Shown in pieces: positions 38,874 to 61,390 of a DNA stretch of 64,000 nt. Position numbers and translations under genes: made by a program. The notes beneath the pieces were generated by a model that did not search any database, had not been told where the DNA came from, and saw nothing but the letters and a program-made list of their open reading frames with translations. The first letter of the stretch is position 1, and every line of letters begins with the position of its first letter. Origin of the DNA: Luminiphilus sp. (lineage in GTDB: Bacteria > Pseudomonadota > Gammaproteobacteria > Pseudomonadales > Halieaceae); the NCBI GenBank assembly GCA_029242325.1, contig JAQWUD010000009.1:1-64000 (forward strand), written 5' to 3'.

Positions 38874-40643
38874 TCAGGCATAACCGTAGCGCGCCATGTG
38901 GCTTCCCAGCTGAGCCCGCACCGTTTCCACCTCCTCTGGGCTGAGCGCGCGCTCGAAGCGGTTCTGCTCGGAGTGAACCCGCGTGAAGTCCGCTGAGGCC
39001 GCGTCAAACGGTTCACCTAGAAATGCCAGAATCGATTTCACCGAATCCTCTGGAGAGGTTGTCAGCACCTCGTACGTGAGGGTATGGAGGCGATCAGGCC
39101 AGGCCGTCTCGAACTCACGCACAATTGATACCGCCTCCAACCAGGTATTGATCGCTGCCTGCAGGCTATGCGGCCCCATGACCTTCCCGGCCTTGAGACT
39201 GGCCACGACGTTCAACGGGTGGCGCACAATATGAACAAACTTTGCTGCTGGGTAGACAGCACTCAAGAGCAGCATGCCGTATACGTTCTGGGGCGTCTTG
39301 TCGAACCAGCGCCCCGTCTTGATACCCTTCGCTTCGAAAAATAAGGCGGCATAGCCATCCTGCAGATCTCGCCGGCTCACAGCGTTACCAAGTAATTCGA
39401 GGTAACGTTCCTCGTCTACGCCATCTATTTTACGATGCGCTATGAGCGTCTCGTTGTGTCGCTGGATGTGATTAAAATCGCCCGTCGCAAAGGGGTGAGG
39501 CCATCGGAAGAGATGGGTTTCCTCGGGGCAGTGGAGGTCGGGCTGCTGCTTGAGCAGATCGCGCAACAGTGTGGTGCCAGAGCGGACACACCCTACTAGA
39601 AAAAAAGGCGGCGTTTTGGCATCCGCGAGCCTGGTATCAGTATCGCTGTTGCGCGAAGCGGGGCTCGAGCCTGGCGCCTGATCAGCCACCGGCATAGCCG
39701 CAGACAGGCTTTGGACCTGCGCGGCCCCGGACGGCGACGACGGCGCTACATCCTCACCTGGGGACGGGCCGTTTTTACCAAAACGCTGAGAGATGTTATC
39801 GGTGGGTTTGGTGCCCTCCACGGCTCCTGCCAAAATTAACTCAAGCGCTTCGGGTGTTTTCCAATGCTCTCCGCAAACAAAGCGGGGAATCGCCCATCGA
39901 TCACTCGCTGCGCTGAAGTAGTCACCCGCCGTTGAGAAGGCCGCCCTGAAGCGCGCCGCATGCGCGGGGAAAAATGTCTCGCGCAGATAGTCGTTCACGT
40001 GCCCATACGGATAGGCAAACAGGCGGCTGCGCTGCTCACCCAACTTGCCCTCCAGATAGTCCTCCGCACGGATAATCTGATCGCGTGCTCGCTCATCAGT
40101 GTCAATGCAAAAGAAATTCCCTGCCATACCGGGCACATCGGCGACCTCGGCGAGCGCAGGATGAGTATGGTTCCAGCTGTGGTTGCCAATATCAAGATGA
40201 CATCGGTCAACGGCCTCTTGCCACCAGTGGTCATGCCATTGGTCTCGCCCGGCAATGCACTCCACATCGAGGATGGCTCTGGCTTCGGGGGAGACAATGA
40301 CAAACGCCGTCGCCGGAACGCATTGCCATTCGGGTCGTGACGCCTCCGAGGCTTCTGCCAACAGCCTCGCAAAGCTTTTGAGAAGGCCAATGTGAGGATG
40401 ATAAAAGTCGGCAAAGTCATGGAGCACGCCGTCATCAAATGTCAGAGCGCATATTCGCTCACCAGACAGTTCCTCAAGCCGGCCTTCCAAAAAATAGGTC
40501 ACCAAGGTGGGGAGTCGCTCTACCCGGAAACCCGCCGATTTAATCAGGGCCAGGTCCTGCTCCAAGGCAACATGGTCATTATCTGCGTAGGAAGACCCTC
40601 TCGTATTGAGAGAGTGATAGGTCAGAATGGGGATGTGGGGCAA
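38874..40643 (-). CDS. Fused polysaccharide deacetylase - sulfotransferase
   Basis: The 589-residue protein joins two catalytic domains. Residues 1-275 form a NodB-type (CE4) deacetylase: ILTYHS near 6-11, the TFDDG motif at 68-72, His pair in GNHSWNHTHP (155 and 159) for the metal, and FAYPYG at 209-214. A low-complexity linker rich in Ser, Pro and Ala covers 278-343. Residues 346-589 form a PAPS-dependent sulfotransferase: 5'-phosphosulfate loop FFLVGCVRSGTTLLRDLL near 347-364 and 3'-phosphate motif FVHIVRHPLNVVASL near 469-483. No signal peptide is seen, so it should act in the cytoplasm. The start is TTG. The combination resembles, by analogy only, animal heparan N-deacetylase/N-sulfotransferases. 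Confidence 0.88.
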   Translation of the reverse strand: MPHIPILTYHSLNTRGSSYADNDHVALEQDLALIKSAGFRVERLPTLVTYFLEGRLEELSGERICALTFDDGVLHDFADFYHPHIGLLKSFARLLAEASEASRPEWQCVPATAFVIVSPEARAILDVECIAGRDQWHDHWWQEAVDRCHLDIGNHSWNHTHPALAEVADVPGMAGNFFCIDTDERARDQIIRAEDYLEGKLGEQRSRLFAYPYGHVNDYLRETFFPAHAARFRAAFSTAGDYFSAASDRWAIPRFVCGEHWKTPEALELILAGAVEGTKPTDNISQRFGKNGPSPGEDVAPSSPSGAAQVQSLSAAMPVADQAPGSSPASRNSDTDTRLADAKTPPFFLVGCVRSGTTLLRDLLKQQPDLHCPEETHLFRWPHPFATGDFNHIQRHNETLIAHRKIDGVDEERYLELLGNAVSRRDLQDGYAALFFEAKGIKTGRWFDKTPQNVYGMLLLSAVYPAAKFVHIVRHPLNVVASLKAGKVMGPHSLQAAINTWLEAVSIVREFETAWPDRLHTLTYEVLTTSPEDSVKSILAFLGEPFDAASADFTRVHSEQNRFERALSPEEVETVRAQLGSHMARYGYA

Positions 40644-40730: not shown

Positions 40731-41663
40731 TTAATCCGCGTCCGCCGCCTCATGTGTCTCGTAAGCCTCCAGAAACGCATTGATCAGCTCTGGCTCGTCA
40801 ATTGCTGCTATCTCTGCTTCGATTTCGGCGCGGAAATCTCCCAGCAACTCCTCTCTCAATCGGATTTGGGTGGACGCCTTGATTTCTTTGATCAGTGCCT
40901 CTTTAACGCGCTCAAACGGGAGTGTTTGCTCGTCTCTGCGGTCGATAAGCCTTATGAAATGGGCGCCAAAGCGGGTCATGATCGGGCCGGCGGTGTCTCC
41001 CGACTCTAAGAGATTAAAGGCAGCCTCCGAGAAGCTCGGTTGCATGCGTTGACGCGAAAAAAAGCCCAGATCACCACCATTTCTGGCCTTAGAGGGATCA
41101 TCAGAGTACTGATCGATGAGATCGCCAAAGTCGGTCCCACCCGCCAGTGCTTTCTGAACCGCTTCCACTTTTGATACAAAGGTAGTAAAAGGCACCCCGT
41201 CGATTGACACGAGGATGTGCTCTGCGCGCACCTCCTCTGGTGCAATGAGATCTACCCTGCGCTGAGCATATTCGACTTTAGCGAGGCCTTCCCAGTCAAC
41301 GTTTGCCATGCGTGCAGACATTTCATCGTCGAGAAAACGCTCTAGCAACGCTCTGCGATACAAGTCTTGCCGCAGGTACTCACGGTCGCCTTCTGAGACT
41401 AAATCGCTCCCTTCTACAAGGCTCATTACGCGCTTTAGCACGTAGAGATTTTGCAGCACACGAAATGTTGCCTGAGGCTTTGACAGCGATGCCTCGTAGG
41501 CGCCTGGGTTAGTGTGCCGAAGAGAATACGCAAATGCCTCCTCGAAGGTGATTTCAACATTCCTCTCGGAAAGGATCACCGTCTCCGCATGAGCCTCTAC
41601 CATTAAGTTTGATGCGAAGCCCGCCAGCACGGCAGAGAGCTTGGGGAGTATGCTCTTTGTCAT
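40731..41663 (-). CDS. Periplasmic parvulin-type peptidyl-prolyl isomerase
   Basis: The 310-residue protein has a signal-peptide-like N-terminus (ILPKLSAVLAGFASNLMVEAHA). Then comes a helical chaperone region and a PpiC/rotamase domain near residues 145-240 (VRAEHILVSIDGVPFTTFVS, SKARNGGDLGFFSRQRM, MTRFGAHFIRLIDRRDEQ). SurA- and PpiD-like proteins of this type fold exported proteins. The position beside two secreted-protein genes and the type II secretion operon makes a specific role in folding secreted proteins plausible. The acidic tail (AYETHEAADAD) is free of known motifs. Confidence 0.9.
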   Translation of the reverse strand: MTKSILPKLSAVLAGFASNLMVEAHAETVILSERNVEITFEEAFAYSLRHTNPGAYEASLSKPQATFRVLQNLYVLKRVMSLVEGSDLVSEGDREYLRQDLYRRALLERFLDDEMSARMANVDWEGLAKVEYAQRRVDLIAPEEVRAEHILVSIDGVPFTTFVSKVEAVQKALAGGTDFGDLIDQYSDDPSKARNGGDLGFFSRQRMQPSFSEAAFNLLESGDTAGPIMTRFGAHFIRLIDRRDEQTLPFERVKEALIKEIKASTQIRLREELLGDFRAEIEAEIAAIDEPELINAFLEAYETHEAADAD

Positions 41664-41702
41664 ATTTTCAATTATCGGTTATTTGATCAGCAGACTAGAT
41701 TG

Positions 41703-41724
41703 AAAAGGGCGCCAGATGGCGCCC
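41703..41724 (-). terminator. Intrinsic terminator after the Gly-rich secreted protein gene
   Basis: Minus strand GGGCGCC-ATCT-GGCGCCC followed by TTTTCAAT. It lies about 20 bases past the stop of the gene at 41743. Confidence 0.87.
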
Positions 41725-41742
41725 CCATGAACCGTAATGGGC

Positions 41743-42591
41743 TCAATAGCCTTTGATGCGTCGCGACACATCAAATTGATACTTTGCGGCAGATTTTTGC
41801 TTATTGGTATCGCTGCAAGTGCCACCGTAAAGCGGCTCATAACAGCGGGTCTCGAAGTTCACGTACAGGGTTCGAGATGCAGTACCCAGATCACACATTT
41901 CTCTCGCTAATGACGCGTCCTGAGTCCAATAATATTGGGTTTTCGCTTGCGCCCCATACCACTCGCACTTAGTTCCCTCAAGCACTGGCCCATGCGGAGT
42001 TTCGGAGAACCACATATGAAAAATATCTTCCGTCGCAGTGTTTCTTTTCCTTTCCCCAGTGGTGAGGTGAAGGTACCCATACCGCGTGTCTAATGCTTCG
42101 CTTCGTGAGGGAAGCGTGAAAGGAAGCACCTCTGTCAGTCCACTGCGAATCCAATAAGGCTTCTCGCCAGTGCCCGCTATCCAGGGGTCAAAATTTTGCT
42201 CTGCCTGGCAGTCAGCCTGCGAAGGGTCGTAGTCTGCACAATAACCCTCGGTAGGCACATCTCCCGCCGTGCCCCCTGAGCCACCGCTGTCACCGCCTGT
42301 GCCACCGCTATCACCACCCGTGCCACCGCTATCACCAGCCGTGCTACCAGCACCATCACCCAGCGTCACCGAAAACCCCTTGAGAACAAGAAAAACGTCA
42401 CCGTCTGAGGCAGTGGTCACCCTGACGTAGTCGCCCGATTGGATTTCCAATGGCGTCTTTTCGCCATTGTCATCGGTGATCGTCAACGTGGCTGCCGAGG
42501 CGCCGAGAGCGGCGAACAGGCCCCCTACAAACAAGACAGGCAGGCACCTGCGCACCAGTGGGCGAGAGTAAAATATAGAGCTAGAAAACAT
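41743..42591 (-). CDS. Secreted two-part protein with Gly/Ser/Asp tandem-repeat linker, unknown function
   Basis: No family is recognised. The start at 42591 (MFSSSIFYSRPLVRRCLPVL) is fixed by CGGAGG six bases upstream. An ATG 27 bases earlier lacks such a site. A signal peptide with cleavage after ALGASA leads to a small N-terminal domain (TLTITDDNGEKTPLEIQSGD...), then a linker of GGDSGGT repeats (near residues 93-120). A Cys-rich C-terminal domain follows, with eight or so cysteines (CADYDPSQADCQAEQ, KCEWYGAQAK, ETRCYEPLYGGTCSD), probably disulfide-bonded. It is monocistronic with its own terminator. Location next to gspEFG...D hints at type II secretion. Confidence 0.75.
   Translation of the reverse strand: MFSSSIFYSRPLVRRCLPVLFVGGLFAALGASAATLTITDDNGEKTPLEIQSGDYVRVTTASDGDVFLVLKGFSVTLGDGAGSTAGDSGGTGGDSGGTGGDSGGSGGTAGDVPTEGYCADYDPSQADCQAEQNFDPWIAGTGEKPYWIRSGLTEVLPFTLPSRSEALDTRYGYLHLTTGERKRNTATEDIFHMWFSETPHGPVLEGTKCEWYGAQAKTQYYWTQDASLAREMCDLGTASRTLYVNFETRCYEPLYGGTCSDTNKQKSAAKYQFDVSRRIKGY
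42278..42340. repeat. Three tandem copies of a 21-bp repeat
   Basis: Units start at 42278, 42299 and 42320. On the plus strand each is close to GTGCCACCGCTATCACCAC plus two bases, coding on the minus strand for GGDSGGT. It forms the flexible linker of the secreted protein at 41743-42591. Copy number could vary by slippage. Confidence 0.9.
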
Positions 42592-42597
42592 GGATGA

Positions 42598-42603
42598 CCT
42601 CCG
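42598..42603 (-). promoter_or_regulatory. Ribosome binding site deciding the start of the Gly-rich protein
   Basis: CGGAGG on the minus strand, six bases upstream of the ATG at 42589-42591. It argues for the shorter start that has a clean signal peptide. Confidence 0.8.
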
Positions 42604-42697
42604 GAAGTCCTTTTCCAAAAAAAAGCACTACGTATGTATGTTTGACGCCGCCGAGCTCAGAAAATTCCGTTCAGGCCCGAAAAACACGATTTTACTC

Positions 42698-55649: not shown

Positions 55650-55953
55650 CTCAATGGCCTCCTTTAGTGAAGTTCGGTGTCGCAACGACAGGTCGTGGCG
55701 CGCCCAAGGGGTTCTATGCAAGGACGGCCGCCCGAAAACGCTTATTCCCCTCGAACGACAAGATCGTGACATTGTGGGGCAAAACAGCCTGTAATACCGT
55801 GGGTAGTTTTCACACCTCCCACCAACTGGTGCCACTCCTTTTCTCGTGGATTTGTCATGGCCGCATCGCTATGCTCTGCGCAGCCACCCTGTAGCGCCGA
55901 TGGTGCCAAAAGAGATGACTGCCCCGACTTGCGCGCACTTAAGCAGAGACCCA
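55650..55953. other. Divergent intergenic region between gspE and a sulfotransferase gene
   Basis: The region holds the gspE ribosome site (AGGAGG, 55658-55663). Both genes point away from it, so promoters for both should lie here, but no -35/-10 pair was good enough to call on either strand. No RNA gene or small ORF was recognised. Confidence 0.5.
55658..55663 (-). promoter_or_regulatory. Ribosome binding site that fixes the gspE GTG start
   Basis: AGGAGG on the minus strand, eight bases before GTG 55647-55649. It is the strongest Shine-Dalgarno sequence near the N-terminus and supports a start about 186 bases inside the longest frame. Confidence 0.8.
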
Positions 55954-56766
55954 ATGAATCGACGAAGCGTGCTGGTGCACTACCACATTTTCAAAAATGC
56001 CGGGACCTCCTTCGAGCGCGTTCTGGATGAAAACTTTGGCGACCGGCATATGACTTTTGACGGCCCCTTTTCGTTTTCCCAGGTCAATCAGGATCAATTG
56101 GCAACCGTCATTGATCACCACCCCTCCCAGTGCGCCTTTTCATCACACCAGATACACCTGCCCGTGCCCTCATCGCTGAACTTTCGGGCGATCCCGATTG
56201 TGTTCGTGAGGCACCCCTTGCTCCGCATTCGCTCGGTCTATCTTTTTGGGCAACGAGATCAACAGGCTGCCGATCCCAGCGCAACATCAGCGCCGCTGGC
56301 AGGATTTGAGGATTGGGTGGCATCTATGCTCGCAGGAGACAAGAACCGGCTACACCTCTCCAACCTGCAAACCGGCGCGCTGAGTCGGGCCTATAACCTG
56401 CCGCCAAAAAGAAGCGGCGAAAATGGCCGAGTCTGCTTTGACCTCCAGGCCGCCATCAATAACCTTTTATTGGTGCCGTGTCTCGGGCGCACAGACCATT
56501 TCGATACCGACGTGATGAGCTTTGCCGACTCACTAGCGCGATTTGATATCGACTTTTCATACCAGCCAGGAAGGGCGGAAAACGTCAGTTCGCCTGATTA
56601 CAACGCGCCTATTGAGGATCAACTCCGGTCACTGGAGCACAGCGTGACCGCAGAGACGTGGGAAAAACTACACTGGCTGAATCATCAGGATCTGGCACTG
56701 TTCGATATTGTGCAGGAGATGGTTGAGCAACGACTAAGCAGCGGTATCCCTATCCACCTCGCTTAA
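55954..56766 (+). CDS. Carbohydrate sulfotransferase family protein
   Basis: The 270-residue product has the two sulfate-donor (PAPS) motifs of carbohydrate sulfotransferases: LVHYHIFKNAGTSFERVL near the N-terminus and IPIVFVRHPLLRIRSVY near residue 90. No signal peptide or membrane segment is evident, so it acts in the cytoplasm. The ATG giving MNRRSVLVHYHIFK starts right before the first motif; longer upstream frames add unlikely residues. Its end overlaps that of the giant glycosyltransferase gene by 17 bp in opposite orientation. The acceptor is unknown, but the neighbour suggests a glycan. Confidence 0.8.
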   Translation: MNRRSVLVHYHIFKNAGTSFERVLDENFGDRHMTFDGPFSFSQVNQDQLATVIDHHPSQCAFSSHQIHLPVPSSLNFRAIPIVFVRHPLLRIRSVYLFGQRDQQAADPSATSAPLAGFEDWVASMLAGDKNRLHLSNLQTGALSRAYNLPPKRSGENGRVCFDLQAAINNLLLVPCLGRTDHFDTDVMSFADSLARFDIDFSYQPGRAENVSSPDYNAPIEDQLRSLEHSVTAETWEKLHWLNHQDLALFDIVQEMVEQRLSSGIPIHLA

Positions 56767-59700
56767 AGAGCGGGCCCAAAGCCTCAAGCAAGGCGCGTTT
56801 TGCGACATCGGGGGTGAAGCGTCCCTGCAATGACTCGCGACCATTGGCAGATAATGTGTTCCATAGCCCCTGATCACCATAAACCTCAGCCATGGCCTGC
56901 GCGAAGGCTTCGGGGGTGGACGCAAACATGGCGTCCCTCCTGTTCTCAAGACCCATGCCCTCCAGCGCCATCGGTGAGCCCACAACGGGCACGCCATAGC
57001 TCAGCGCCTGATTCACTTTGCCTTTCACACCCGCGCCATACCGTAAGGGGGCGATGACTAATTTGCAGCGCTGATAGTAGGGGGTGAGATCCTCAACGAA
57101 GCCCAGCATTGTTAGACCCTGTGCCTCACCCCACCGTTTTAAGCTATCCGGCATGCGGCTGCCAATGACCAAAACCTCGGCCTCGGGGCAGGTCGCTCTG
57201 AAAAGCGGCCAGATCTCCTCGCCAAAGTATTCCACTGCATCACTATTCGGAGGGTGCTGAAACCCACCCACAAACAACACATCGCGTCGCCCCTCAGAGG
57301 CAACCGGGCTCGCATCAATCTCATGAATATTGCTGATCAAGGCGACTGGCGCCGCAGGCGCTTCGGCCGCCAAAGCACTCACCTCTGCCTCGCTCACAAC
57401 AATCGTCAGATCCGACTGTGCAATCACCGCCAGTTCTTCTTGATGAGCAAGCTCTGCCATCTTGAGGGTTGCGGCAGCGCCGTCAAGTTGGTGCTGCCGC
57501 TGCAATCTCAGATAGTGCAGGTCGATGGTATCGAACCAAATCTGGGTGTTGGTTTGGGCGTCCCTTATCAGCTCGACATACTGAATCGCGATGTAATGTC
57601 GGCACAAAGTCACCACGTCATACGCCCCCCCATGCGCCTGCAGGTAGTCGCGCATGGACTTTACGTGGGGCACGTGAAGCACCTCGATGCCCTCATCTCG
57701 AAGCCGCTGGGCATAAGGCTCATCCGCCAGGAGATTATCAGCTGCAAACGTTACCTTGCACCCAAGGTCGCGCAATATTCTCAATAACCTGACGGTTCTC
57801 AATGAACCCGAATCCTGATCAGGTGTCAGCATGCAGGCCTCTACCCAGAGGATGCGCGCCTGTGCCCCCCGATCGCATTCTCTTTGCGGCGCCTCGCCAT
57901 TGGATGCGTGTTTTGAAAGCTGCTGCGACCACTTTGCAGCGAACAACGCCTGATTTCTGACCTGATATGCTTTTTGGCCCTCGTTGACGTCTGTGCCGTG
58001 AGACACTCCCTCGAAATGCACCACAGTGGCAGCGGGCTGATAAAGCGTGCGCCAACCGGCCTCGCGCAGGGCGAAACACAGGTCGGTGTCCTCGTAGTAG
58101 CAGGGCGCAAACTGTTCGTCGAACCCACCGACCGACGACCATGCTGCCCTGTCCACCATCAGCGCGGCAGCAGAGCAGTAATCTGCCTCCCGAACGTAAT
58201 TAAACCGGGGCAAGCTGGCGTCCTCGTCACGCCCCCAGTTCCAGCCTGAGCCGTCGCGCCAAATAATGCCTCCAGCCTCCTGCAATGCACCATCTGGATA
58301 GCACAACTTCGCACCCACTGCGCCAACACCCGAGAACTGCTGAAAGGTGTGCCATAGGGCATCGATGGCGTCTGCAACGAGCTGGGTATCGTTGTTAAGC
58401 AGCAGCACCCGATCACCCCTCGCCTGAGATACAGCGTGATTACAGTTCCGCAGAAACCCAAGGTTGTGCGGCTGCCTGATCAGTCGCACACCGCTAATGT
58501 CGAACTCGGTCGGGTCAAACGGGTCCGGGTAGGCGTCGTCGGCCACGATCACCTCAAAGGAGACAGACGGCGGGCAGGCACTGATCGATCGCAAGCAGTG
58601 CGCCGTCACCGCGTGCTCACCGAAACTGGGGATCACAATAGAAAGCTGAGGCGCAGTTGCGTCATTGAAAGCAACCGGGGAACCGGGCAATACCGCTAGC
58701 CAGTCGGAGCCTCCATCGGCTGTCGGCGACATCGCTGTCTCCCGCCGCCGCCATCGATGCCATCTGCGCCCAGCCGCACTCCTGAGACCCCTCCAGCCGC
58801 CCGTGGAATAATGGTAACGCGAGAACACGTAGACCTTCCGGCTAAACACGGCCAAGGGGCGCATTCGCTCGATACCCAGCTTGACGCCGTGTAGCGTCCA
58901 CCGGAGGGGTGTCATAAGACGCCAGAGCGTGCTGGTCTCCAACTCCAGTACCCGCTCAGCAAATACATTCCTTTCTGCGAGAATTTGATCGCGCTCTATA
59001 AAAGATCTGTCGAGCGCTTTACTGATCTCGCCCTGTTCAGCCTGCAAAGCGTCCACGATTTCCTTGAGATGCAAGACATCTGCGGCATTCGCTTCCTGCA
59101 GGCTGGCTATCTCACTCTTAAGGTGGTGCTCCTCGCGCGCGTGGGCCTCGTGCAAGCCATGGATCGTCTGCGTGAGATGCTCAACCTCCTCTGCCCTCAC
59201 ATGCAAATGCGCCTCGCGCTCCTGCAGAATGGCATGCGTATCCAACGTATGGTGGCGCAGCGCCGCCTGTGCTTCGGCATGACGCTGCTCTAGGGCCGCG
59301 TTCAATAGCTCTTCGATAGGCGGAAGGGGCGCGGCGAGCGGCTTTTCGACCTCAGCCAACCGCGTCAACACCTCAAGCAAACGCTCAAATACCAACGGTT
59401 CAGATGGGTCCAACGGCGCCAGATAGCGCTCGGCATATTCCGCAGGCGATACGAACCCGATCCTACTCTCAGCAGTTTCGATCTGCTGTATGACATGCGT
59501 AGGACGCTGCGCCAAGAGCACCTCAAGCAGCGCGCCTGTATCACTTGAAGCGGGCAACAGACTCGCCTGCGGGACTTCACGCAGCCGCTCCTCCATCGCG
59601 CCTGAGGCGACAGCGATAATCGGGAGTCCGGTCGCTAGGCACGCGGAAAGTGCGTAGTTAAAGGTTTCGGGTATTTGCGAAGCGAACAGAAAGCAATCGG

Positions 59701-61390
59701 GGCGTTCACGTAGCAGAATATCGGGCAGGTCTTCTCGGCGATAGGGGCCGGTCACCAATGCCCTCGGGTGGTTGTTTAGGGGCCTGATGGTCGGGCCTAT
59801 GATGGCAAAATCGAGGGGGAGGTCAGCCTCCTCAGCGCGCCTGACGATGCTTGCGACCACGTCAAAGCCTTTGATCAGTGACAAGGCACCCACTACCGCA
59901 ACTTTAATCCGAGATTGGCTACGGGCCTGATGCTGGGAAAAACGCGCTGTCTGGGTATCGGCGTGGGGCCAAACGCTGCAGGTCACATCCGGATAATAAT
60001 CGCGAATGGCCTCGGCCGTGGATATTGAGGGACAAATCACTCGTTCAGCCCGCATCAAATGACCCGAGAATGCCTCCCGCCACTCCACAATTTCAAGATC
60101 CCAATGATTGGGCCGCTCAGCGATACAGGCGTTACAACCTGCGTCATTGGGTCGGCCACAGAATCGCCCATCCTGATCCTGAAAATGGAACTGAGGACAG
60201 GCCGCGACGAAGTCATGAATCGTAATATCGAAAGGCAAATCGACTTTTGAGGGCAGGTCCAACACCCATCTCGGCTGCCCCGCGTAGTGGTGGTAGTGAA
60301 TGCGCTGAACGCCAAATGCAAGCAGGAACTCGGGAATCAGTCGCTCTGCCTCAGCTTCGGGCAACCTGATAGAGAATGCTCCCTCACCACCAACAGTCTC
60401 TACGCAAATCGCGCTTTCACCCCAAGGGCTCATTACCAAACTCAGGCACCCGCTGACCTCCCGACAGGCCCGCGATAAATCTTCTACATATTGCGAGACA
60501 CCCCCACCCAGTCTGTGGGACACATGAAGGATTCTTGGACCGTCACTGGGCTGCAACCGTTCAAGATCACACCGCAATCGGGCAGGAAGCGCTGGATCAC
60601 GCTTGATCCAGTCCTGAACGTGAGCCGAAAAATCAGGGTATCGCTGGTCCACCACTGTTTGCGCCGCGATCTTCAGCTGTTCCGACTCGTAGCCAAAAGA
60701 CACATTGCCTGCGTGGTAAACGAACACGTCGCAAGCCAAAAGGTGGTCCCACCCGGCGGCGGCGGTCGATAGACAAAACTCCACCTCCTCGCCATAGCCA
60801 CGGCCATAGCGCTCGTCGAACCCGTTGCTCGCCTGCCACGCTTCCCTCGCCACAAACATGCAAAAACCAATTGCCGTGGGTAAAGACACCGATTCTCCGC
60901 CATTGGCGCCGGCCATCGCACGATCGAGCACGGCCACATCAATCAGCGTATCTGCACTGCGTGCATTGCCGCCCCAGGGATAACTGGCGATGGTCGCATT
61001 ATTGGAGAAGGGCGTGACGGTAGCCACTTGGGGATGGCCTCTGGCGTGAGCGGCCATGCGGTCCAGCCAGTCACCATGGACTTCTGTATCCGCATTCAGC
61101 AAGACAAAATCGTGATCAAGCCGCAGTGCTGCACCCTGATTACAACTGCGGACGAAACCTTGGTTTTCCTCATTAACCAGGAGCGTAATCAAGGCAGCAT
61201 CGGCCAACCGTTGGAGGTAGTCGCCAATCTCGGGTTCCGGCGAGCAATCGTTCACCACGATCACGTTACCCAGCACTTCATTGGTGCTGGCTAACACGGA
61301 CTCGAGGCACGCCCTCACCTCCGCCACGCCACCGTAAACCGGGATGATGACGTCTACGGCAGCTCTTGAATCACTCACGGATCGCATCAT
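56750..61390 (-). CDS. Giant four-domain glycosyltransferase with central coiled coil
   Basis: The 1546-residue protein holds, in order, a GT2 domain (about 10-260; VDVIIPVYGG, LLNADTEVHG), a GT4 domain (about 285-665; ILHVSHRLGGGVSQYV, GALSLIKGFDVV), and a charged helical coiled coil (about 690-820, rich in Glu, His, Leu). A second GT2 follows (about 914-1150; LSIVIPSFGE, LLLNNDTQLVAD) and a second GT4 (about 1180-1546; DVLFVGGFQHPPNSDAVEYF, VIAPLRYGAGVKGKVNQA). Such multi-domain enzymes can add alternating sugars to a surface polysaccharide or modify surface proteins. No membrane segment is seen. It converges with a sulfotransferase gene at its 3' end. Confidence 0.88.
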   Translation of the reverse strand: MMRSVSDSRAAVDVIIPVYGGVAEVRACLESVLASTNEVLGNVIVVNDCSPEPEIGDYLQRLADAALITLLVNEENQGFVRSCNQGAALRLDHDFVLLNADTEVHGDWLDRMAAHARGHPQVATVTPFSNNATIASYPWGGNARSADTLIDVAVLDRAMAGANGGESVSLPTAIGFCMFVAREAWQASNGFDERYGRGYGEEVEFCLSTAAAGWDHLLACDVFVYHAGNVSFGYESEQLKIAAQTVVDQRYPDFSAHVQDWIKRDPALPARLRCDLERLQPSDGPRILHVSHRLGGGVSQYVEDLSRACREVSGCLSLVMSPWGESAICVETVGGEGAFSIRLPEAEAERLIPEFLLAFGVQRIHYHHYAGQPRWVLDLPSKVDLPFDITIHDFVAACPQFHFQDQDGRFCGRPNDAGCNACIAERPNHWDLEIVEWREAFSGHLMRAERVICPSISTAEAIRDYYPDVTCSVWPHADTQTARFSQHQARSQSRIKVAVVGALSLIKGFDVVASIVRRAEEADLPLDFAIIGPTIRPLNNHPRALVTGPYRREDLPDILLRERPDCFLFASQIPETFNYALSACLATGLPIIAVASGAMEERLREVPQASLLPASSDTGALLEVLLAQRPTHVIQQIETAESRIGFVSPAEYAERYLAPLDPSEPLVFERLLEVLTRLAEVEKPLAAPLPPIEELLNAALEQRHAEAQAALRHHTLDTHAILQEREAHLHVRAEEVEHLTQTIHGLHEAHAREEHHLKSEIASLQEANAADVLHLKEIVDALQAEQGEISKALDRSFIERDQILAERNVFAERVLELETSTLWRLMTPLRWTLHGVKLGIERMRPLAVFSRKVYVFSRYHYSTGGWRGLRSAAGRRWHRWRRRETAMSPTADGGSDWLAVLPGSPVAFNDATAPQLSIVIPSFGEHAVTAHCLRSISACPPSVSFEVIVADDAYPDPFDPTEFDISGVRLIRQPHNLGFLRNCNHAVSQARGDRVLLLNNDTQLVADAIDALWHTFQQFSGVGAVGAKLCYPDGALQEAGGIIWRDGSGWNWGRDEDASLPRFNYVREADYCSAAALMVDRAAWSSVGGFDEQFAPCYYEDTDLCFALREAGWRTLYQPAATVVHFEGVSHGTDVNEGQKAYQVRNQALFAAKWSQQLSKHASNGEAPQRECDRGAQARILWVEACMLTPDQDSGSLRTVRLLRILRDLGCKVTFAADNLLADEPYAQRLRDEGIEVLHVPHVKSMRDYLQAHGGAYDVVTLCRHYIAIQYVELIRDAQTNTQIWFDTIDLHYLRLQRQHQLDGAAATLKMAELAHQEELAVIAQSDLTIVVSEAEVSALAAEAPAAPVALISNIHEIDASPVASEGRRDVLFVGGFQHPPNSDAVEYFGEEIWPLFRATCPEAEVLVIGSRMPDSLKRWGEAQGLTMLGFVEDLTPYYQRCKLVIAPLRYGAGVKGKVNQALSYGVPVVGSPMALEGMGLENRRDAMFASTPEAFAQAMAEVYGDQGLWNTLSANGRESLQGRFTPDVAKRALLEALGPLFKRGG

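Follow-up and report, generated by a model that had tools for sequence, protein, structure and literature searches.

Synthesis of heparan and heparin has the N-sulfation of amino sugars as its committing step. In the tailoring of Nod factors, NodB and NodH act on one molecule by deacetylation and O-sulfation, and the sulfate sits on oxygen. Bacterial deacetylases of the PgaB/IcaB type work outside the cytoplasm. Among sulfotransferases, the domains of CurM and the olefin synthases act on polyketide hydroxyls, and the tyrosylprotein sulfotransferases (TPST) act on protein tyrosines.

In the animal N-deacetylase/N-sulfotransferase NDST1 the chain has an N-terminal domain (PMC10864358), and two reports group the NDST deacetylase with CE18/Agd3 and not with CE4 (PMC13353177, PMC10864358), the type of the deacetylase described here. 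Expression of active NDST in bacteria is described as a key bottleneck of the heparin field (PMC13353177). The difficulty of producing active NDST in bacteria led, in 2026, to the construction of an artificial deacetylase–sulfotransferase for N-sulfated heparosan, for which CE4 deacetylases were tried as the deacetylase part (PMC13353177). That fusion is man-made, and a natural bacterial one is not mentioned in the available text of the report. Our search of the open-access literature, with subscription journals and preprints outside its scope, found, in the titles and opening abstract lines of the papers listed, no description of a natural bacterial CE4–sulfotransferase fusion.

The window analysed here, a stretch of 64,000 nucleotides from Luminiphilus sp., encodes a CE4-type deacetylase fused to a PAPS sulfotransferase. 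Both domains are already known; the fusion is recorded once, from this genome only, and the pairing several times.

Architecture of the fused protein

The fused open reading frame (38874..40643, minus strand) runs uninterrupted for 589 codons from a TTG start. Its first start codon and the ATG that opens the CE4 gene in the closest relative (locus L035, a Halothiobacillus metagenome-assembled genome) are at most one residue apart, and the chain opens at the first strand of the CE4 barrel, with no secretory N-terminus or export signal visible by eye. PF13469, PF01522 and PF00685 are its only Pfam matches at E ≤ 0.1. A preliminary description of this DNA had proposed a single protein made of a deacetylase and a sulfotransferase joined by a Ser/Pro/Ala linker, and this architecture is borne out: both Pfam domains score above their curated cut-offs within one reading frame, and residues 276–343 (39615..39818, minus strand) form a Ser/Pro/Ala/Gly-rich linker of about 68 residues.

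The linker region has GC contents of 0.63, 0.62 and 0.66 at the first, second and third codon positions, and its third-base signal is not clear. The linker frame is the sole stop-free one among the three forward frames; when the base composition is shuffled, about 15% of shuffles stay open by chance. An in-frame ATG (residue 317) and GTG (residue 319) are present, with no clear Shine–Dalgarno sequence in the 20 preceding bases.

The deacetylase domain

The CE4-type domain (residues 1–275; 39819..40643, minus strand) matches PF01522 (Polysacc_deac_1) over residues 110–222 (E = 4.5e-10, 40 bits against a cut-off of 23.1). CE4 enzymes use an Asp as base and an Asp-His-His set of metal ligands, and motif 5 supplies a His as catalytic acid. 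All three NodB-type motifs named in the preliminary description are present, TFDDG at residues 68–72, HSWNH at 155–159 and PYG at 212–214. That description had regarded the domain as only partly conserved, which is contradicted by D70, D71, H155 and H159, invariant in 16 of 16 aligned members of the CE4 clade; H260 of GEHW, the candidate for the motif 5 His, is not invariant among the same 16.

By profile, the closest PDB sequences are 6dq3, PgaB (3vus/4f9d) and other poly-GlcNAc deacetylases such as 4u10, and the match to IcaB is weak and under the cut-off. The domain has this profile match and a FAYPYG motif in common with PgaB/IcaB-like enzymes, from which it differs in having no visible export signal and a PAPS enzyme on the same chain. 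The AlphaFold2 model, built with just three different CE4 sequences as input, has a pLDDT of about 40 over the CE4 part, and fold comparison is informative for the sulfotransferase part only.

The sulfotransferase domain

The PAPS sulfotransferase domain (residues 344–589; 38874..39614, minus strand) matches PF13469 (Sulfotransfer_3) over residues 346–547 (E = 2.4e-32, 113.4 bits against a cut-off of 27), and the sulfotransferase fold is matched in the predicted model. Both PAPS-binding motifs were correctly assigned to the C-terminal half. In the 5′-phosphosulfate-binding loop GCVRSGTT (residues 351–358; 39570..39593, minus strand), the residues R, S, G, T and T are invariant in a 12-row alignment (A2) and conserved at 90% or more in a further alignment (A6). 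The 3′-phosphate-binding motif comprises R474 and S482 (39198..39224, minus strand), both invariant in A2. The possibility that one domain is dead is thus unsupported, as the metal ligands and both PAPS motifs are conserved in the alignments, and both domains look catalytically competent.

A profile search of the PDB places the domain nearest to CurM and the tyrosylprotein sulfotransferases; unlike these, many of its relatives lie among glycan genes. The resemblance to NoeE reaches 3e-12, yet scores 45.9 bits against a cut-off of 500. The 2.76-Mb genome holds five sulfotransferase-type matches, this one included, and encodes an APS kinase elsewhere, so PAPS can be made.

Homology to animal NDST was considered and rejected. 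PF12062, the profile proposed earlier as a check, has no match in the fused chain; the chain lacks the NDST-type N-terminal domain (about 230 residues); and sequence searches with the sulfotransferase gave no NDST chain among 13 matches at E ≤ 1 or, by profile, among 33 at E ≤ 0.01. Nothing points to heparan as the backbone.

Genomic neighbourhood

The fused gene is flanked directly by no glycan-assembly gene. Its immediate neighbours are a PPIC-type prolyl isomerase of putative role upstream (40731..41663, minus strand; PF13616, 6e-18) and an AmpG-type permease. These are the neighbours that had been called export-related; a type II secretion cluster begins about 4.5 kb away. At a distance of 15 kb lies a second sulfotransferase of another family (55846..56766, plus strand; PF03567 Sulfotransfer_2, 7.3e-6, 26.7 bits against 22), which matches nothing in NCBIfam at 0.01 or in the PDB at 0.1. 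It is convergent with a gene for a 1546-residue glycosyltransferase (56750..61390, minus strand) in which domain matches indicate the order GT2-GT4-GT2-GT4, and the two genes make up a second sulfation-related locus in the window. Since the type II secretion genes lie between this locus and the fused gene, the arrangement is a neighbourhood and not an operon.

The isomerase gene lies downstream of a gene for a Gly/Ser-rich protein of secreted type, both in the window (40731-42618, minus strand) and in locus L106 (12942-14877, minus strand). A conserved island of Gly/Ser-rich protein, isomerase, CE4 and sulfotransferase was considered for these two loci and rejected: the isomerases are related (E about 1e-18), but the Gly/Ser-rich proteins have no detectable homology. 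Among 40 other genomes of the genus, isomerase relatives are distant only (6 of 40, the best at 37% identity).

Many members of the wider sulfotransferase clade lie in a glycan-synthesis setting. The first 640 residues (GT2-GT4) of the large glycosyltransferase have a match above 100 bits in 33 of 61 sulfotransferase loci, a figure to be read knowing that proteins of this make-up may occur frequently in any surface-glycan cluster, and a Wzt-like ATPase (above 50 bits) occurs in 17 of the 61; neither was found in L035. The window-type sulfotransferase gene often directly adjoins that of a Wzt-like ATPase (L042, L052, L060, L068 and others). The scan of direct neighbours covered 82 proteins, drawn from 100 candidates inside contigs by dropping 8 over 900 residues, 2 interrupted by a stop or an unknown base, and 8 that were short; 9 of 62 loci contributed none, no sulfotransferase gene having been called there. 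Among the best 25 of 52 families, glycosyltransferases, ABC transporters and further sulfotransferases come first, and PF01522 appears in one of the 82 neighbours, the CE4 protein of L035. Seven copper-ATPase-like neighbours, probably from a Roseicyclus group, represent a non-glycan context.

Relatives that pair CE4 with a sulfotransferase

A search of genome contigs with the window protein returned 62 loci, and L035 alone gave a near full-length match. There, CE4 and sulfotransferase are adjacent separate genes, 62% and 61% identical to the window domains. The two genes share a frame, have three stops between them, and the second has its own ATG after a purine-rich stretch. Separation of the domains in close relatives, which the preliminary description had held would count against its proposal, is therefore a fact in L035; the adjacency, the stops and the separate ATG weaken the case for one protein and support that for one pathway.

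The domain pair itself recurs in other lineages. In L106 (genome G207), CE4 and a window-type sulfotransferase lie 1.2 kb apart in a cluster that also holds a methyltransferase gene and Wzt/Wzm. In L079 the window-type sulfotransferase is absent, and the CE4 gene, just after Wzm and Wzt genes, is directly followed by a sulfotransferase of family PF00685, whose phmmer matches include the bacterial 3rnl (8.7e-12), heparan sulfate 3-O-sulfotransferase 3A1 (6.7e-11) and NDST1 (2e-6). The CE4 clade is thus paired with a sulfotransferase in four genomes, those of the window, L035, L106 and L079. By a rough estimate, a random gene would lie within 2 kb of a sulfotransferase about 1% of the time, which makes recurrent pairing in separate lineages unlikely by chance.

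From the sulfotransferase side the association is rare: 60 of 61 retrieved loci have no CE4 of this clade in the retrieved DNA, and as flanks longer than 4.5 kb on each side are present at 39 of the 61, a CE4 gene could hide past the contig ends in the rest. In profile searches the CE4 clade turned up in 5 of 369 genomes sampled from the class, in 3 of 398 from the phylum and in 3 of 120 from the family, in overlapping samples that each include the window's own genome. It is found in 39 of 147 genomes of family f225 and in 2 of 116 of family f38, and the window's CE4 was not found in the 20 other genomes of the genus listed. The orders of G207, G338 and G198 comprise one genome each, so further sulfotransferase-paired CE4s could not be found there. 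Carriage by phage or plasmid was considered and set aside, no CE4 relative occurring in the viral contigs or plasmids searched.

A GNAT-like domain as the alternative partner

In loci of 41 distinct genomes, HMMs were used to look for the sulfotransferase and for a domain that recurs beside CE4, here termed G; eight further CE4 matches of family f225 for which there was no locus fell outside this survey. The partner of CE4 is G in 34 genomes, a window-type sulfotransferase in 3 (the window, L035 and G207), another sulfotransferase in 1 (L079) and neither in 3. These last are G1155, with 16 kb covered, and G198 and G1061, where the locus lies at or near contig ends. G and a sulfotransferase together accompany CE4 in none of the 41.

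The G domain comprises about 165 residues, usually ending in GPF (L015:2374-2913, L009:2380-2985 and the loci of 32 further genomes). It lies within 2.2 kb of CE4 in all 34 genomes and is joined to the CE4 C-terminus in one (G177; locus L015). Family f225 supplies 29 of the 34 and three other families the remaining five, so the independent cases are far fewer; within f225 the orientation of the G gene varies and its distance reaches 2.1 kb. Five members tested have no Pfam match at E ≤ 10, NodA included. GNAT enzymes carry an Asn/Asp...Gly-Phe motif, and the best PDB match of G, the probable acetyltransferase 1nsl (E = 0.09), extends over the stretch that matches this part. From motifs judged by eye, G is GNAT-like and a putative acyltransferase.

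These partners may be read as alternatives at one step, in which CE4 would expose an amine and the partner would then cap it by acylation or sulfation. The Nod factor system NodB-NodA-NodH/NoeE follows a comparable plan, in which N-deacetylation precedes N-acylation and there is also a sulfation step; it differs in its acyltransferase, the G domain lacking a NodA Pfam match in the five members.

A gene for a matrixin-like protease and one for a small secreted-type protein lie near CE4 in two distant genomes (L106:2467-4355 and L149:8164-9920, with PF00413 in L149), of which L106 has a sulfotransferase partner and L149 a GNAT-like one.

Phylogeny of the two domains

Among the 46 rows of the CE4 tree, six genomes are represented twice, by wide and narrow loci, and ten rows are unlabelled, most of which were later seen to carry G at a greater distance. 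In the alignment (A7), two CE4 rows stray at their C-terminal ends. The window and L035 form a pair (100/98). L079 is sister to L015 at 98/73, on a branch that is not starred, within a 100/100 group that includes L009, which has G. Such a placing of a sulfotransferase-bearing locus beside the fused G is predicted by a shared amine-capping slot. The sulfotransferase label requires three changes, two of them forced by starred branches, and is weakly clustered, a count as low being reached in 55 of 500 shuffles.

The sulfotransferase tree, with 66 rows once 7 duplicates were removed, again pairs the window with L035 (100/99); CE4 is absent from the sister group of this pair, and L106 is placed elsewhere. 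The CE4 label requires two changes, both forced, with 16 of 500 shuffles as low. Long branches make the placing of L106 in both trees, and of the window row in the CE4 tree, unsure. On the simplest reading, CE4 and sulfotransferase were joined more than once, or an old pairing was often lost; whichever history holds, a functional link between them is likely.

Proposed mechanism and alternatives

We propose, with a probability of roughly 0.4, that the fused protein is one cytosolic bifunctional glycan-tailoring enzyme that N-sulfates the amine exposed by its CE4 domain. D71, H155 and H159 would hold the metal and D70 would act as base, the CE4 domain would deacetylate an N-acetylated amino sugar in the precursor of a surface glycan, and the sulfotransferase domain would pass sulfate from PAPS to the freed amine, so that the amino sugar would already be N-sulfated when exported. 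The cytosolic location, deacetylase activity, sugar substrate, amine acceptor and order of steps are all inferred. The choice of an amine as acceptor follows from the partner rule (GNAT-like or sulfotransferase but not both, each once fused C-terminally) and not from any residue of the sulfotransferase site. The enzyme would work as NDST does, although its parts, a PgaB/IcaB-like CE4 and a CurM/TPST-like sulfotransferase, would have been combined independently.

The sulfate may instead go to a hydroxyl of the same glycan, with the amine exposed by CE4 staying free or serving another purpose, a division of labour like that between NodB and NodH on a single Nod factor; we consider this a real possibility, if a less probable one than N-sulfation. 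With 60 of 61 sulfotransferase loci lacking this CE4 in the retrieved DNA, the sulfotransferase ordinarily acts in its absence and could well be an enzyme that sulfates oxygen. The frequent GT2-GT4 proteins and Wzt-like ATPases of its clade, the resemblance to NoeE and the hydroxyl acceptors of CurM and TPST, the nearest solved relatives, point the same way, and at least one bacterial sulfated capsule of known structure has an O-sulfate, according to one report (PMC11641403). O-sulfation alone gives no account of the either/or partnering of CE4 or of the fusions at the same end, which N-sulfation would explain as capping of one amine. That the two domains have different or non-sugar substrates, such as an N-acyl lipid or a peptide, and co-occur through shared mobile pools of surface genes appears unlikely. 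Consistent with it, CE4s of f225 lie beside acyl-CoA dehydrogenase-like genes (named by eye) and not in visible glycan clusters, and the absence of CE4 from the other listed genomes of the genus suggests transfer; the CE4s of L106 and L079, however, lie within Wzm/Wzt clusters, and the pairing recurs on the trees.

More improbable still is an origin of the fusion in a sequencing or assembly error, or translation of the frame into two proteins by internal initiation, the true state being that of L035. The two genes there, with their stops and separate ATG, argue for it, as do the unclear third-base signal of the linker and its chance of staying open on shuffling. Because the L035 genes share a frame interrupted by three stops, however, a single indel is not a simple route to the window sequence; the make-up of the linker is ordinary for a linker, and neither internal start codon has a clear Shine–Dalgarno sequence before it.

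Under the preferred reading, N-sulfation of the exposed amine, the protein would tentatively be a natural, independently evolved bacterial analogue of NDST, in which a sulfotransferase replaces an acyltransferase-like partner and an N-acetylated sugar becomes an N-sulfated one. If so, bacterial surface glycans with sulfamate groups would exist. The fused protein and its two-gene relatives would allow a direct test of bacterial glycan N-sulfation and might be developed into a tool. Should the sulfate sit on oxygen, the either/or partnering still singles out a deacetylase family, so far without a name, that follows a rule open to testing.
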